DNA from: Saprospiraceae bacterium
GTDB taxonomy: Bacteria > Bacteroidota > Bacteroidia > Chitinophagales > Saprospiraceae
Length of the DNA: 64,000 bases
Reading direction: 5' to 3'
Assembly: GCA_019187225.1 (NCBI GenBank)
Contig: JABAQQ010000006.1
Coordinates: 1-64,000 of the forward strand
A model generated the notes under the pieces. That model was given only the letters and a program-made list of their open reading frames with translations. It had not been told where the DNA came from and did no database searches. Shown piece after piece: positions 22,335-62,310 of the stretch; position 1 is the stretch's first letter; every line of letters begins with the position of its first letter. Made by a program: the position numbers and the translations under genes.

Positions 22335-23117
22335 ATGCTACAAGCAACAAATCTGCCGGATCATCTGCACCCAGACGCACTTCACGCGGCAATACAGCAT
22401 TCACGCGGCGTGATATTATTACACTCGCGCACTATCGAGAAAAATCCGAGTGATGTAGAAGCTTACCTGGCCCGCGCTGCAGAGTATTATATGTTGGGCG
22501 AAATAGATGCCGCCCAACATGACTACGAAGCGGTACTCACCCAGCATCCGGGGCATTCTGCTGCCCTTTCCGGCCGAGGTAACTGTCGGAATAATCGGGG
22601 TGAATTTGCTTTGGCCATTCAAGACCATACGCTGGCTATCAGCCTCGACCCTGGTAGGGCCGAACTCTATATGAACAGAGGGAATGCGTATGGAAATCGA
22701 GGTCTTCTGAGAGAAGCGCTCATTGACCAAACGAAAGCTGTTGAGCTGTCCCCGTCTGGATCATGGTACTACTACAATCGCGCGGTCACATATGAAAGAA
22801 TGGGAATGCCCGAAGAGGTCCTCGCTGATTGTGCGAAAGCCATTGAACTGACCCCGGTATTTCCAGAAGCGCATTTCAAACGTGCCAATGCCTTTGCTGC
22901 AATAGGGAAATGGAAGGATGCTCTGTCATCATATAACGCTGTTCTGGCCACTCAACCCTACAATGTTGATGCTTTGGTGAACGCTGGTCAAATTCTCCTC
23001 CTAATGGGCCAAGATAATCAAGCTGTCACTTATCTTTCTAAAGCGGCCGAACTGGGCGATCATGAGGCACGTGTCGCCGCCCAGAAAGTGAAGGCTAAAC
23101 TCCTTCGCGACTCCTGA
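22335..23117 (+). CDS. TPR-repeat protein
   Basis: A 260-residue protein almost wholly built of tetratricopeptide repeats (about six, from residue ~38 to 250), recognisable by the W/Y-L-G-A-Y-A-P spacing in segments such as YLARAAEYYMLGE, YMNRGNAYGNRG and YNRAVTYERMG. No signal peptide, so cytoplasmic. The 14-base gap to the TIR gene downstream implies one transcript, and a scaffold or sensor role for the TIR protein is plausible (inference). Codon and base composition are less GC-rich than in the genes outside the island. Confidence 0.8.
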   Translation: MLQATNLPDHLHPDALHAAIQHSRGVILLHSRTIEKNPSDVEAYLARAAEYYMLGEIDAAQHDYEAVLTQHPGHSAALSGRGNCRNNRGEFALAIQDHTLAISLDPGRAELYMNRGNAYGNRGLLREALIDQTKAVELSPSGSWYYYNRAVTYERMGMPEEVLADCAKAIELTPVFPEAHFKRANAFAAIGKWKDALSSYNAVLATQPYNVDALVNAGQILLLMGQDNQAVTYLSKAAELGDHEARVAAQKVKAKLLRDS

Positions 23118-23131
23118 AGTTGATTCTATCC

Positions 23132-23854
23132 ATGAGTCTATCCATACTTTCCATAGTCCATTCCCGAGGTGTCTATACCTTTCCATATTCAGGTGTAGTG
23201 ATCCTTCTTGAATTGTCACTTACCGCACGCCGCGAAAAGCGCCCCCTCATTGAAGTATTTCGGGAGGCACATATTGAGGAAGTGCTGCTAACTCATCTTG
23301 AAGACAGTGGCTCATGGTTCTACAGACATCTGATTGCCTTGGCTACCGTCGGAGGGCAGATTGAATCGTTTGATCCGGTTCCTGCTGAATGGGAGTCGCT
23401 AGTGGGCAGATTCTGGGAAATGGCCTCCAGGAACGATGGGAAAATCATGGCGGAGATTGTCGTTTTTCTAAGTTATAGTAGACAGGACATCGCTATGGCA
23501 CGGGAGGTCGCGTACAAGTTACGCGAGAAAAAGATGGCAGTGTGGCACGATGAACTGGAGAGCCGTGTAGGGGACCCGATCATAGAAATGATCAGTAAGG
23601 GTATTGATGAAGCCAACGCGATGGTTGTGCTTGTGTCTAAAGCGTCAATGGCATCGTCTTGGGTGTGTGCAGAAATTGAAATAGCAGTGAAACGAAACCT
23701 GCCAATTTTCCCAGTGCTTCTTGAAAATTGCAATATTCATAGCGCTTTGCGGGGCATTGTCTACGAGGATTTCCGTAACGTTGTGAATAGAGCGGAGCAA
23801 CTTGAGCGGCTTGCAGCAGCGATTCTTAGGAAGACAAAGGCGCCCTCAACGTGA
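23132..23854 (+). CDS. TIR-domain protein with intact catalytic Glu
   Basis: Residues ~108-205 form a TIR domain: VVFLSYSRQD at strand A, AVWHDELESRVGD (BB-loop region), AMVVLVSKASMASSW at strand D, and E181 in the SWVCAEIEIA helix, at the position of the catalytic Glu of NAD-cleaving TIR proteins. Residues 1-105 are a helical domain I do not recognise. TIR enzymes of bacterial defence cleave NAD+ or make cyclic ADP-ribose; that activity is inferred from E181. A TTG at 23120 is in frame, but the ATG at 23132 is preferred. It lies directly behind the TPR gene. Confidence 0.82.
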   Translation: MSLSILSIVHSRGVYTFPYSGVVILLELSLTARREKRPLIEVFREAHIEEVLLTHLEDSGSWFYRHLIALATVGGQIESFDPVPAEWESLVGRFWEMASRNDGKIMAEIVVFLSYSRQDIAMAREVAYKLREKKMAVWHDELESRVGDPIIEMISKGIDEANAMVVLVSKASMASSWVCAEIEIAVKRNLPIFPVLLENCNIHSALRGIVYEDFRNVVNRAEQLERLAAAILRKTKAPST

Positions 23855-30024: not shown

Positions 30025-30126
30025 GTTGAGAAGGGTTAATAAAGGTTGATGACGTAGAGTACGCTGCGATCCGGGCGTATGCTACGTCATCAACCTTCAT
30101 CAACTTTTCTCAACCTTCATCAACCA
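30025..30126. repeat. Inverted repeat built of TCATCAACCT units
   Basis: A 33-base arm at 30025-30057 pairs with 30082-30114, perfectly over the inner 16 bases and with four mismatches beyond. It fills the space between the YeaQ-like gene and the GH13 gene. Confidence 0.8.
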
Positions 30127-32054: not shown

Positions 32055-34490
32055 TCACCTTCCACTCCGGTTTATCACCGTTGCGCTCGCTTGCTGCGTC
32101 CCGAACATCTGAATATCCTGCACATTCACGTGCGGAGGCCGCGTCGCCATCCAGTAAATCGCTTCTGCCACGTCGCTCGACTTCAAAGGTTGGAAATCGT
32201 CGTAAATCCGGGCGCGTTCGGCGTCGCCGTCGAAGCGGGTGATGGCAAATTCCGTCTCCTCCACGTGTCCCGGACTGACCTGGCTGACGCGAATGTTGTA
32301 TTGGTGCAGGTCGAGGCGCATGGAACGTGTGAGCGCTTCCACGGCGAATTTGGTGGCGCAATAAACGTTCCCGTTCGCATACACCTCTTTCCCGGCGCTG
32401 CTGCTGATATTGATGATGTGTCCCCGGCGGCGGGCGACCATACCCGGCGCGACGGCGTGGGTGACGTAAAGCAAACCTTTGATGTTCGTGTCAATCATCT
32501 GCTCCCAATGGTTGGGATTGCCTTCGTGGATGGGTGCAAGGCCTTTGGCGAGTCCGGCGTTGTTGACCAGGATGTCAATGTTTTGCCAGGATTCGGGCAG
32601 GTTGTCGAGGGCGGCTTGCACGGCGCCTTGTTCGCGCACGTCGAAAGGCAGCATGAGCACGTCGGCATGGAGTTCTTCTTCGAATTCGGTTTTCAACAGA
32701 ACCAGGCGTTCCACGCGTCGGCCGGTGAGAATGACCCGGTGGCCGTTGCGGGCAAACACCTCCGCAGTAGCGCGACCGATGCCCGAGGTGGCGCCGGTAA
32801 CAAGTACCGTCAGCACTTCGCGTTTTTCAAGAATGGACTGCGGAGCGGGGACGGCTTCGGCTGGCGGCGGCGCAACCCATTTCTCTTCCGCAATCATTTC
32901 CGTCCCGAGCGACGATGCAGGCCGGAAAAGGCGGTCGTTCTCCGCCGTCCGGAGCGCTGGATTGAGCAGGACAGCTTGGGTATAGTGAGCCTCAGCGAGC
33001 GCCGGATCGTCGTTTTGCAGCACTGATCCAGCCAGCGCGAGGTGCACTTCCGCGTCATTGGGGTCTTGTTCGAGGGCTTTGTGCAGGTAATGCACAGCAG
33101 TTTCCCGGTAGTCCCGCAAATGCTCGGAAGTCATCAGTCCGAGTTTGCGGAAAACGCCGGGGAATTGAGGATCAATTTCCGCGGCGCGGTCCCAGCAGTA
33201 TTTGGCGAACAGGTAGTCGCCTTTTTCGGCGGCCATATCGCCCATCAGATCGTAGGATTTAGCTTCGTTCTCTTCGGTTGACGGTTGACGGTTGACGGTA
33301 GACGGGGCTTCATCCGTTGCAGCCGGTTCAGGAGAAGCGGTCTCTTCCCGGGGGTGTAGTTTGGAATGCGCAAATTCGAGTTCGTGTTTGATCCGTTCGT
33401 TGTCGGGGTGTTGTTCGAGCGTAAATTGCAGCAATTCCAGCCCGCGCTCGATGTGTCCCTTGTCAATCCAAAACCAGGCATCGCGGATAGCCTGTTCGAT
33501 CTGGGCTTCGATATTTTGTGGATCAACCGATTCTGCTTCTGCCAGAGAAAAGCCGGTTTCGGCGATATCCAGGTCTGCTGGCGGCAATTCGGCGGCAGGG
33601 AGCTCCTCCGTTTTTTCCTCTGTTTCCATTTGTTGTATCAGCGTATCCATGCCGTTAAAATGGCCGTTGCCGGTGGGAATTTCAGCAGCGGCTTCCTGTT
33701 CCGTAGCAAAGTCGAGGTCTTCATCCGCCCATCCGCCGGTGGGCGGCACAGGTTGTTCCGTATCTTCCATTTCTGCCGGTTCAGGAATGAGGGGGCCGGC
33801 GACGATGGGCATTCCGGTCAGTTCCTGGTGTGGGGCAGTTTGGGGGATAGGCGGCGTGTTGTCTTGTGGAATATAGGTCGCCTGGGCGAGTTGCCGGTAT
33901 TGCGTATGCCATTCCTGCAGGCCGAATTGTTTGAAAAACAGGGCGTAATCGTCATCGGTAAACCTTTCCCATGTTACATACCCCGACTCGCGCAGGAAGC
34001 TGATGAACTCGCCCATTTCATTGGCTATATTTCGGGTTGCGTTTAGCTCTTCTTCCAGGGCGGCCTTCGCTTCGCCCTCGCTGTGCTGGTAGCGGTCGCT
34101 CAGTTCGAGCCAGGCCGTCTGCCAGAAGTTCATGTATTGCAAGGCGTACACCATGCGGTCGAAATGCGTTTCCACGTATTCGAAGGTGGCGCCTCCGTCG
34201 TGGCTCACCTTGCCATCGGCTACCACCACGAGCAGGCGCCGGGCGCGCTGCAGGGCTTGTGCGGTGGTCAATGCGCCGCTCATACAAGCGGCGTTTTTGA
34301 AAAAATTGTCGGTCAGGAACAGGATGACCGGATCTCCCGCTTCCAGCAGGCGGCCGCTGAAAGTACCCGGCTTTTCTTCTATCCGGTCGGTGATGTGTTC
34401 GAAAGGAATGCCGATGCGGTTGAGTTGATGTTCGAGGTTGACGGCTAATTCGGCGTTGTCGTGGCAATATGCGAGGACGATCCGGTTCAT
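32055..34490 (-). CDS. TIR-TPR-SDR fusion protein
   Basis: An 811-residue protein with three parts. Residues ~1-120 look like a TIR domain (MNRIVLAYCHDN, VILFLTDNFFKNAACMSGAL), but no Glu stands at the catalytic position, so it may be a non-enzymatic interaction domain. Residues ~215-345 are an acidic, Pro-rich linker, followed by TPR-like helices (~346-540). Residues ~559-811 are a complete classical short-chain dehydrogenase: TGATSGIG at 565-572, NNAG at 643-646, catalytic Ser in NISSSAG, and Y710/K714. The SDR resembles YdfG-like NADP-dependent dehydrogenases. The part of the linker reading STVNRQPST is encoded by GGTTGAC heptamers. ATG 34490 is chosen since the TIR-like part begins there; a perfect 30-bp hairpin lies just upstream. 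Function unknown. Confidence 0.8.
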   Translation of the reverse strand: MNRIVLAYCHDNAELAVNLEHQLNRIGIPFEHITDRIEEKPGTFSGRLLEAGDPVILFLTDNFFKNAACMSGALTTAQALQRARRLLVVVADGKVSHDGGATFEYVETHFDRMVYALQYMNFWQTAWLELSDRYQHSEGEAKAALEEELNATRNIANEMGEFISFLRESGYVTWERFTDDDYALFFKQFGLQEWHTQYRQLAQATYIPQDNTPPIPQTAPHQELTGMPIVAGPLIPEPAEMEDTEQPVPPTGGWADEDLDFATEQEAAAEIPTGNGHFNGMDTLIQQMETEEKTEELPAAELPPADLDIAETGFSLAEAESVDPQNIEAQIEQAIRDAWFWIDKGHIERGLELLQFTLEQHPDNERIKHELEFAHSKLHPREETASPEPAATDEAPSTVNRQPSTEENEAKSYDLMGDMAAEKGDYLFAKYCWDRAAEIDPQFPGVFRKLGLMTSEHLRDYRETAVHYLHKALEQDPNDAEVHLALAGSVLQNDDPALAEAHYTQAVLLNPALRTAENDRLFRPASSLGTEMIAEEKWVAPPPAEAVPAPQSILEKREVLTVLVTGATSGIGRATAEVFARNGHRVILTGRRVERLVLLKTEFEEELHADVLMLPFDVREQGAVQAALDNLPESWQNIDILVNNAGLAKGLAPIHEGNPNHWEQMIDTNIKGLLYVTHAVAPGMVARRRGHIINISSSAGKEVYANGNVYCATKFAVEALTRSMRLDLHQYNIRVSQVSPGHVEETEFAITRFDGDAERARIYDDFQPLKSSDVAEAIYWMATRPPHVNVQDIQMFGTQQASATVINRSGR
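33276..33303. repeat. GGTTGAC heptamers inside the fusion-protein gene
   Basis: Three to four 7-base units in the coding region of the flexible linker ahead of the second group of TPRs. This is another instance of a heptamer array lying in a tolerant protein segment. Confidence 0.75.
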
Positions 34491-34504: not shown

Positions 34505-34570
34505 AATGAATTTGTGGCGGCGTGCAAAAAATTTCATTCAAAATTTTTTGCACGCCGCCACAAATTCATT
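34505..34570. repeat. Perfect 30-bp inverted repeat upstream of the fusion gene
   Basis: Arms 34505-34534 and 34541-34570 are exactly complementary, with a 6-base loop. The hairpin ends 14 bases before the start codon at 34490. No T-run follows on the minus strand, so it is not a standard terminator. The remaining bases to 34723 show no gene. Confidence 0.95.
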
Positions 34571-34723: not shown

Positions 34724-36040
34724 TCATTCTGAGCGCAGCGTTTCGATCAACTCCGAGAACTCCTGCTTGAACGCTCCGTAACGGGAAGTAGCCGGGCCGT
34801 CGAAGCCGGTGTGAATGCGGCGTACGCGGTTTTTTTTGTCCAGAACAATCATGGTGGGGAATGCCATGATATGATCGAGTGCCGGGAACACTTTGGAGGC
34901 TTCAGCTTTGTCAGTCTTCCCGCCATATACTATGTCAAAGGGTATGCCTAATTTCTTTTTGTATTCCATCAATTGGGTATTGGCCTGGGCGGGGTCTTTG
35001 TGTCGCTCGAAGGAAATGCCGACGATAGCGAGGTCTTGGGCGGCGTCGGGGTTGGCTTTGAGGAATTCCCGGAGAAACACTTGTTCGTCGCGGCAATTGG
35101 GACACCAAGTGCCCATTATGGTAAAAATTTTGATTTTGCCGTCGAATTCCGGAGAAGGAAACGTCAGATCGCGGCCTTCCGGTGTTTTCAGGTGGAAAGA
35201 AATATTTGCACCCGCTTTCAGGGTGGTGAGCGAGTCGGCATTGGCCAGGCGGAAATTGGGATCGCGCCAGGCCGTCCAGAGGGTGCGGTAGTGTTTGCCA
35301 GACCTGTATTCGCCAAATAAACTGTCACTCCGGATGCTGCCGCTGAACAGGTAGGCGTGCCAGCCGTTGAAAGAGGACATCCAAAACTTGCGTCCCTGCA
35401 CCGTGCCTTCGAGGAAGCGGTAATCGCCTGTTTCTGTGCGGAATGTGCCTTCCAGCCGGTTGCCGCTTTGTTTGAATTCGCCAATGGCTTTATCCGGGTT
35501 TTCCGTGTCGGTACCGATGAGCGTTGCCCATTCGCCGCTCAGGTCTTTTTCGGGCGCTTGCGTCAGGGTAGTAAAGCGGTAGTCGCGTCCGGCCTGCGCG
35601 TAAAATGGGATACGGTAGTTCTCCCTCGTTTTCACGATCCACTCGCCCTGCATCGTACCGCCGCGTATTTCAGCGTGGATATACGTCTGGTACTCAGGGA
35701 AATGCACGTTCATGGTATCGCGGGCGCGGCTGCGGTCGCGCCCGTATTGGATGCTGTCGAGCCGTATGCGCTCCGAGCCGTTGATGATCTCGATGTAAAA
35801 ACGTTCATCGTCGAGGTAGGTTACCTCAAAATTGAAAGGCAGGTCGCCTTCCTTGAATTGCTCGTGCAGGACAAAAACGGTGTCTTTGTCGCGTACCGGT
35901 ACCTGGTATTTTTCCAACTCCAGCACACCCCGCCATATCCCCGGCGCAACGCGGGTAAAACTCGTATCGGTGGTGACGCAGCGCGGGGCGAACAAAGCCG
36001 CGAACAATACTAAAAAACTGAAAGCCAAATATTTGTGCAT
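34724..36040 (-). CDS. TlpA-like thioredoxin-fold protein
   Basis: A 438-residue exported protein. After the signal (possible lipobox APRC, C21), residues ~30-270 form a beta-rich domain with repeated GEW.../GTF... strands, as in lipocalin-like N-terminal parts of TlpA-family proteins of this phylum. Residues ~275-438 are a thioredoxin fold with the redox pair in WCPNC (C313, C316) and the cis-Pro loop AFPT. It probably reduces or exchanges disulfides in the periplasm; the partner is unknown. It stands alone with ~95 bases to the T9SS gene upstream. Confidence 0.85.
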   Translation of the reverse strand: MHKYLAFSFLVLFAALFAPRCVTTDTSFTRVAPGIWRGVLELEKYQVPVRDKDTVFVLHEQFKEGDLPFNFEVTYLDDERFYIEIINGSERIRLDSIQYGRDRSRARDTMNVHFPEYQTYIHAEIRGGTMQGEWIVKTRENYRIPFYAQAGRDYRFTTLTQAPEKDLSGEWATLIGTDTENPDKAIGEFKQSGNRLEGTFRTETGDYRFLEGTVQGRKFWMSSFNGWHAYLFSGSIRSDSLFGEYRSGKHYRTLWTAWRDPNFRLANADSLTTLKAGANISFHLKTPEGRDLTFPSPEFDGKIKIFTIMGTWCPNCRDEQVFLREFLKANPDAAQDLAIVGISFERHKDPAQANTQLMEYKKKLGIPFDIVYGGKTDKAEASKVFPALDHIMAFPTMIVLDKKNRVRRIHTGFDGPATSRYGAFKQEFSELIETLRSE

Positions 36041-43324: not shown

Positions 43325-43760
43325 TTTTGACGTTGGACTATTGGACTATTGGACGTTGGACAATCTGACATTGGACAATCAGACATTGGACAATCAGACA
43401 TTGGACAATCAGACATTGGACAATCAGACATTGGACAATCAGACATTGGACGTTGGACAATCTGACGTTGGACAATCTGACGTTGGACAATCTGACATTG
43501 GACAATCTGACATTGGATGTTGGACAATCTGACATTGGACCTTGGACAATCTGACATTGGACAATCAGACATTGGACGTTGGACAAAAGCAGTTCAATAG
43601 TCTAATAGTCTAACATCCAATAGTCCAGCGTCCAACGTCCAATAGTCCAGCGTCCAACGTCCAATAGTCCAGCATCCAACGTCCAATAGTCCAGCATCCA
43701 ACGTCCAATAGTCCAGCATCCAACGTCCAATAGTCCAACGTCCAATAATCCAACATCCAA
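43325..43760. repeat. Large inverted TTGGAC / GTCCAA repeat array
   Basis: The entire space between the transporter and nudK genes. The left part (43333-43585) is a TTGGAC-based array with a 15-base higher unit (ACATTGGACAATCAG or ...CTG). The right part (~43597-43760) consists of about six 22-base units containing GTCCAATAGTCC and CATCCAAC, i.e. the reverse orientation. The array starts two bases after one stop codon and ends four bases before the next ATG. Confidence 0.93.
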
Positions 43761-57297: not shown

Positions 57298-57418
57298 GTT
57301 GGATTGTTGGACGTTGGATATTGAACTCCGGACCGTGAAAGCATTCAACGCCATCCAACGTCCAACAATCCAACAATCCAACGTCCAACAATCCAACAAT
57401 CCAACATCCAACGTCAAT
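57298..57418. repeat. Inverted TTGGAC / GTCCAA array
   Basis: A perfect 22-base stem (57298-57319 with 57353-57374) plus further right-hand GTCCAACAATCCAAC units to 57418. It starts two bases after the stop codon at 57296 and ends 10 bases before the next ATG. Confidence 0.9.
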
Positions 57419-62194: not shown

Positions 62195-62310
62195 GCACTT
62201 AGACATTGGACGTTGGACAGCTGGACGTTGGACTTTTAGCCTTGTAAATCAATTATTTAGTCCAACGTCCAATGTCCAACGTCTAACTCTCGAACGTCCA
62301 ACGTCCGTTT
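62195..62310. repeat. TTGGAC / GTCCAA inverted array
   Basis: Three TTGGACGT-type units, an AT-rich centre, then five GTCCAACGTCCAAT-type units in reverse orientation. It begins right at the stop of the VWA gene and fills most of the convergent gap to the SafE-type gene. Confidence 0.85.

Follow-up and report, generated by a model that had tools for sequence, protein, structure and literature searches.

TIR domains have been studied mostly as immune enzymes or immune adaptors. Among short-chain dehydrogenases (SDRs), IsfD is NADPH-dependent and falls, according to the available part of its description (PMC6616044), in a 3-hydroxyacid dehydrogenase group that is ubiquitous in bacteria. A protein that joins the two, that is, a TIR–SDR fusion, is not described in the accessible portions of three surveys of TIR and conflict systems (PMC7075850, PMC8195603 and PMC7159879), and none was found in the titles and abstract starts of the open-licence PMC literature, in keeping with the initial annotation of this DNA, which knew of no characterized protein with the order TIR–TPR–SDR. 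Here we describe such a protein, encoded in a 64,000-nucleotide stretch of a Saprospiraceae genome (hereafter, the window); this conserved chain is real and its parts are known, and its architecture is apparently undescribed.

The fusion gene runs on the minus strand from 34490 to 32055 and translates into 811 residues plus a stop codon, with no internal stops. The Met at 34490 coincides with the start of the alignable part among orthologues, and an alternative GTG start lies 21 codons upstream of it. Four regions make up the chain (all on the minus strand): a TIR-like domain (residues 1–203, with a core of approximately 1–110 and long helices at 113–168; 33882..34490), recognized from TIR_2, a family profile, an AlphaFold model and Foldseek; an acidic, proline-rich linker (residues 204–324; 33519..33881), recognized from its composition, low pLDDT and low identity; TPR-like helical repeats (residues 325–525; 32916..33518); and a YdfG-like SDR (residues 556–811 plus the stop codon; 32055..32825), recognized from adh_short, NCBIfam and PDB matches and from conserved catalytic residues. 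The linker holds 27 Asp and Glu, one Lys or Arg and 17 Pro among its 121 residues, and among the four regions its identity is lowest in 10 of 11 orthologue pairs and ties for lowest in the remaining one; pLDDT is below 50 across residues 172–325. The TPR assignment draws on both repeat profiles (Pfam TPR_2, TPR_11 and TPR_19, matching between residues 410 and 511) and helical pairs (helices over residues 324–522 of the AlphaFold model), bearing in mind the low confidence of the AlphaFold models (mean pLDDT 58.7, and 70.1 for residues 1–203; four alignment rows), which do not cover oligomers. Judged by eye, the protein has no evident signal peptide. The order of TIR, linker, TPR and SDR within a single chain, as the initial annotation had read it, is borne out by the open frame, the profile matches and the relatives.

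By profile comparison, the N-terminus is a divergent TIR domain, an assignment that is weak on the window sequence alone and firmer with its relatives. Taken singly, the N-domain of the window protein matches Pfam TIR_2 at E = 5e-4 (20.9 bits; gathering cut-off 28), and a single-sequence search of the PDB returned one match (E = 0.19) and no TIR. Across the family, TIR_2 is matched at E ≤ 0.01 by 39 of 55 members (best E = 6.4e-10), or by 40 of 56 when the outgroup L159 is included (best E = 2e-16, which is the value of L159 itself). A profile built from the 55 members has the MyD88 TIR as its top PDB match (E = 9.2e-6), a rank that is retained with or without L159 (E = 9e-6). Next come de novo designed proteins (E = 0.003 and above) and further adaptor TIRs (E = 0.05 and above); an in-genus profile, built from 28 members, did no better than E = 0.59, with the TRAM TIR. 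Foldseek with the AlphaFold model of residues 1–203 returned TIR structures at all of ranks 1–9 (best E = 4.4e-3; TM-scores below 0.5), and in this model strands and helices alternate up to residue 91, with the fifth strand not clear (pLDDT 70, four rows). The initial annotation had staked its TIR-like N-terminus on a TIR profile match for residues 1–130; both TIR_2 in the relatives and the family profile supplied it. The region also carries signs of constraint. Tyr119 and Trp123 are invariant, and dN/dS is 0.03–0.18 in those 9 of the 11 orthologue pairs that have dS < 2, next to 0.03–0.09 for the SDR (in its ten computable pairs) and 0.14–0.33 for the linker (values obtained in five pairs). 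The linker value exceeds that of the TIR region in all four pairs computable for both, barely so in the closest pair (0.140 versus 0.129). These estimates indicate that the TIR region is under purifying selection, a strong constraint despite its degenerate site.

This degeneracy concerns the catalytic column, in which Gly72 of the window protein takes the place of the usual Glu; we fixed the column by aligning the C-M-x-E of L159 to what we take to be the bacterial TIR pattern. The Glu in helix C by which an enzymatic (NADase) TIR is recognized is thus not found in the window protein, and the trait is family-wide: 90 of the 92 family TIRs have no Glu in this column. Among all 93 aligned TIRs, three have Glu there (L038, L108 and the outgroup L159) and 40 have Gly. 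In eight further rows a Glu precedes this column by one position (in none does it follow by one), so that a shifted active Glu is possible in some members, and the TIR could still bind a nucleotide. Elsewhere in the window, a second TIR protein (23120–23854, plus strand; TIR_2 at 23462–23812) has a canonical-looking SSWVCAEIE that retains the Glu, and is directly preceded by a protein that is TPR-like by eye (22335–23117, plus strand).

The dehydrogenase appears intact. Its sequence meets the definition of a classical SDR, with the cofactor motif GxxxGxG (G566, G570 and G572), N643-N644-A645-G646 and the tetrad N669, S697, Y710 and K714 all present. In an alignment of 116 SDRs, selected by match to the family's own SDR profile, the cofactor glycines are kept in every row, as are N669, S697 and K714 (116/116 each), and Y710 in 115. 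Arg591 (116/116) and Arg592 (115/116) follow strand 2, which we take to be the NADP-type pattern, and an NADP(H)-type enzyme with an intact active site is predicted. The SDR part matches Pfam adh_short at E = 2.2e-57, and its best PDB relative is 3asu (E = 1.4e-67; titled "Short-chain dehydrogenase/reductase SDR"), with 6ixj ("Sulfoacetaldehyde reductase") more distant; we understand 3asu and 3asv to be E. coli YdfG, an NADP-dependent 3-hydroxy acid dehydrogenase, and 6ixj to be IsfD. YdfG is also the best NCBIfam family (266 bits), and because this score falls below the curated equivalog cut-off of 411, the substrate is a guess. Of the initial annotation, then, the domain order, the lost TIR Glu (now seen in only 3/93 aligned TIRs) and the complete SDR with cofactor motif, NNAG and Y710/K714 all stand; its rationale that TIR and SDR were joined since both touch NAD(P) found no direct support, because the TIR site looks inactive.

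A search for the same architecture in relatives, as the initial annotation had proposed, finds the fusion recurring in 31 coded genera of one family. In a whole-protein search of 60 relatives, the fusion or contig-cut pieces of it occurred in 35 of 37 same-genus genomes, the other two being G028 (76% complete) and G036 (89% complete), and elsewhere in the order, strong best matches were lone SDRs in frames of approximately 254–317 residues. No fusion was found in a further same-genus genome, G372, in which a weak TIR match lies at the far end of a 1,008-residue frame without an SDR and belongs to a different protein. In a set of 396 genomes from the order, the N-domain profile matched 84, of which 83 belong to a single family, and nearly all genomes with a match carry one copy. 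Outside the genus, 71 genomes had a TIR match; the loci of 60 were retrieved (11 were left out), of which 53 have TIR and SDR in one frame, two lie at a contig edge, three are split, and two have TIR–TPR without an SDR in the chain (L114, and L159 from another family). On the SDR tree, the fused rows represent 31 coded genera, besides some rows without a code, and the unfused rows 15 coded genera; the two sets share no genus. One fusion, L022, comes from a public record titled Thermoanaerobaculia and groups inside the genus of the window on this tree; it is probably a mis-binned contig. Among 395 genomes sampled from the phylum, the TIR profile matched eight at E = 1e-6, five of them outside the family; neither these five nor L159 have an SDR in the TIR chain (0/6 out-of-family TIR matches).

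Departures from the fused state also occur. In genus g49 (L141–L143), TlpA, TIR–TPR and SDR follow one another as three separate genes. In L114 (genome G345), the TIR–TPR protein sits beside TlpA and has approximately 120 C-terminal residues after the TPR; no YdfG-like SDR was found in G345 at E = 1e-70 among the matches listed, nor in the stretch adjoining the TIR–TPR gene. This combination means that the module does not necessarily serve the SDR.

The gene neighbours, which the initial annotation had also suggested recording, centre on this TlpA/ResA-like thioredoxin protein. In the window it is encoded at 34724..36040 on the minus strand (438 aa) and has a WCPNC motif, Pfam matches to AhpC-TSA (E = 2.4e-7) and Redoxin, and an N-terminus that reads by eye as lipoprotein-like; it probably faces the periplasm. 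WCPNC is present in 89 of 93 TlpA homologues. The homologues beside the fusion in L107, L112, L117 and L119 have frames of 846–897 nt, are without WCPNC and are possibly split or truncated. Of the 90 TIR-bearing loci that could be tested (L042 and L128, with short upstream sequence, L054 and the outgroup L159 being left out), 72 have TlpA as the immediate upstream neighbour of the TIR gene, in the same orientation. These 72 span 31 coded genera as well as rows without a code, and split, SDR-less and contig-cut loci are counted among them. Of the 18 exceptions, four belong to the genus of the window and one to g39 (with TlpA approximately 1.1 kb upstream), and the others come from g27, g59 and g64. 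Unfused SDR loci from other genera of the family (L164–L183) have TlpA directly upstream in 19 of 20 cases, with no TIR or TPR match in their stretches; these 20 were hand-picked, not drawn at random, from short open frames among the matches listed. Ten standalone SDR loci outside the family's SDR clade (three from other families of the order and seven public Bacteroidota records) have no TlpA upstream, L068 offering only 272 upstream bases. Within the family, the TlpA–SDR pair is therefore the common denominator, and TIR–TPR stands between the two, usually fused to the SDR; given that TlpA precedes fused, split and unfused SDRs, the TIR–TPR module stands inside an older TlpA–SDR pair.

An SDF-family symporter lies upstream of TlpA on the same strand, up to approximately 3.4 kb away, in 24 loci both fused and unfused, which supports both being the same locus; the three tested are nearest to GltP, under its cut-off, and the 20 kb of the window covered by this comparison contained no SDF symporter. 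In three g27 loci (L145, L147 and L148), a PLP enzyme (of the PALP family in the two tested) takes the upstream place of TlpA. Both neighbours hint at amino-acid or dicarboxylate chemistry. In the window, TlpA and the fusion gene are 233 bases apart (10 in L031), and between them lies a perfect 30-bp inverted repeat with a 6-nt loop (34505..34570), the searched pattern of which occurs once in the genome and is absent from the corresponding stretches of L031, L032, L033, L021 and L034. Other strong inverted repeats in the window are found at 30025–30114, 43499–43715, 57298–57374 and 62199–62279.

The SDR tree (116 rows; contig-edge rows and L054, the matches of which are identical to those of L023, were left out) requires three changes between TIR-bearing and unfused rows, and the joint and TlpA-only trees (81 rows; TlpA pieces under approximately 330 residues were left out of the joint tree) require four each. 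With so few changes, the TIR-bearing or unfused state is strongly inherited. Either an early single fusion with losses or repeated gain would account for the pattern, the deep branches being poorly supported.

We hold with moderate confidence that TIR–TPR is a non-enzymatic scaffold on an intact, NADP(H)-type, YdfG-like dehydrogenase; the domains, active sites, selection and locus states were read from sequence, and from them we infer the scaffold role. The probable substrates of the dehydrogenase would be small 3-hydroxy acids or hydroxy-amino acids, with the corresponding aldehydes. The TIR domain would self-associate or bind a partner, the TPR would bind a ligand protein, and these contacts may cluster or localize the SDR (presumably a tetramer, as expected for the YdfG type) and so tune the enzyme, which may share a redox or aldehyde-handling step with TlpA. 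The suggestion made in the initial annotation, of a sensor or assembly domain that controls the dehydrogenase, is compatible with the data. We also put forward, tentatively, a more specific version in which the enzymatically dead TIR is a MyD88-like assembly switch, such that TPR-gated clustering toggles the NADPH-dependent SDR in step with the thiol-redox state that TlpA handles.

A doubtful alternative to this scaffold is that the module does nothing but bind partners, that is, TIR–TPR docks the SDR to the TlpA pathway or the envelope through its TPR and the TIR is a folded cap without self-assembly. The adjoining TlpA gene in fused, split and unfused loci would suit such docking, as would L114, which keeps TIR–TPR beside TlpA with no SDR in the chain; however, TlpA is not adjacent in 18 of the 90 loci, and (both points judged by eye) it probably faces the periplasm whereas the TIR–TPR–SDR chain lacks an evident signal peptide. 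We regard it as unlikely that the TIR instead still works in some unusual way as an enzyme or nucleotide binder, sensing metabolites derived from NAD(P) and switching the dehydrogenase. In favour of such a role are an SDR of the NAD(P) kind, strong constraint on a TIR region with invariant residues of its own (Tyr119 and Trp123), and a Glu one column early in 8/93 rows; yet Glu is missing from the catalytic column in nearly the whole family (90/92).

Defence proteins often contain TIR and TPR, and the window's genome has 25 TIR_2 matches; an anti-phage or other conflict effector, acting by depletion or alteration of NADP(H), must be considered. We judge this very improbable: against PADLOC (Thoeris and others) the window protein matched no family at E ≤ 1, the N-domain has no match in phage or plasmid collections at E = 1e-5, nearly every genome with a TIR match carries a single copy, the neighbourhood of the gene recurs across 31 coded genera, and the state changes few times on the SDR tree. 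There is next to no chance that the chain is an assembly or annotation artefact in which a frameshift or faulty join has merged two genes, as the initial annotation had allowed. Nothing beyond the two-gene state in g49 speaks for it, and the identical single open frame in many independent genomes refutes it. The non-enzymatic scaffold remains the reading that we prefer.

In this locus, which looks metabolic, an apparently inactive TIR has been stably kept across much of a bacterial family. The locus also offers natural controls, as the same gene pair occurs without TIR, with a separate TIR–TPR gene, and fused. Together with a simple spectrophotometric SDR assay, these controls make the role of a non-enzymatic bacterial TIR directly testable; if the scaffold reading is true, an immune-style assembly domain may control ordinary metabolism.

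Compared with known systems, the chain resembles each in part. MyD88, TRAM and TIRAP, the adaptor TIRs, are the best solved TIR matches of the family profile, and the TIR here likewise has no catalytic Glu; unlike them, the window protein is bacterial and fused to TPR and a dehydrogenase, and its self-assembly is putative. L159 (genome G038, another family of the order) shares the succession of TIR then TPR and is matched by the family profile (TIR_2 at E = 1.3e-15), but its catalytic column holds a Glu and its chain lacks an SDR, the SDR of G038 being a separate gene on another contig with no TlpA beside it. The unfused pairs of L164–L183 share the TlpA gene upstream of an orthologous SDR (19/20), whereas their stretches are without a TIR or TPR match. 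YdfG and IsfD are alike to the dehydrogenase in sequence, catalytic residues and arginines. They are, however, single-domain chains (248 and 256 residues), whereas here the SDR follows approximately 550 residues made up of TIR, linker and TPR, and its C-terminus also differs from that of outgroup SDRs in having Gly810 (106/106 family SDRs) where nine of ten outgroup rows have a gap.
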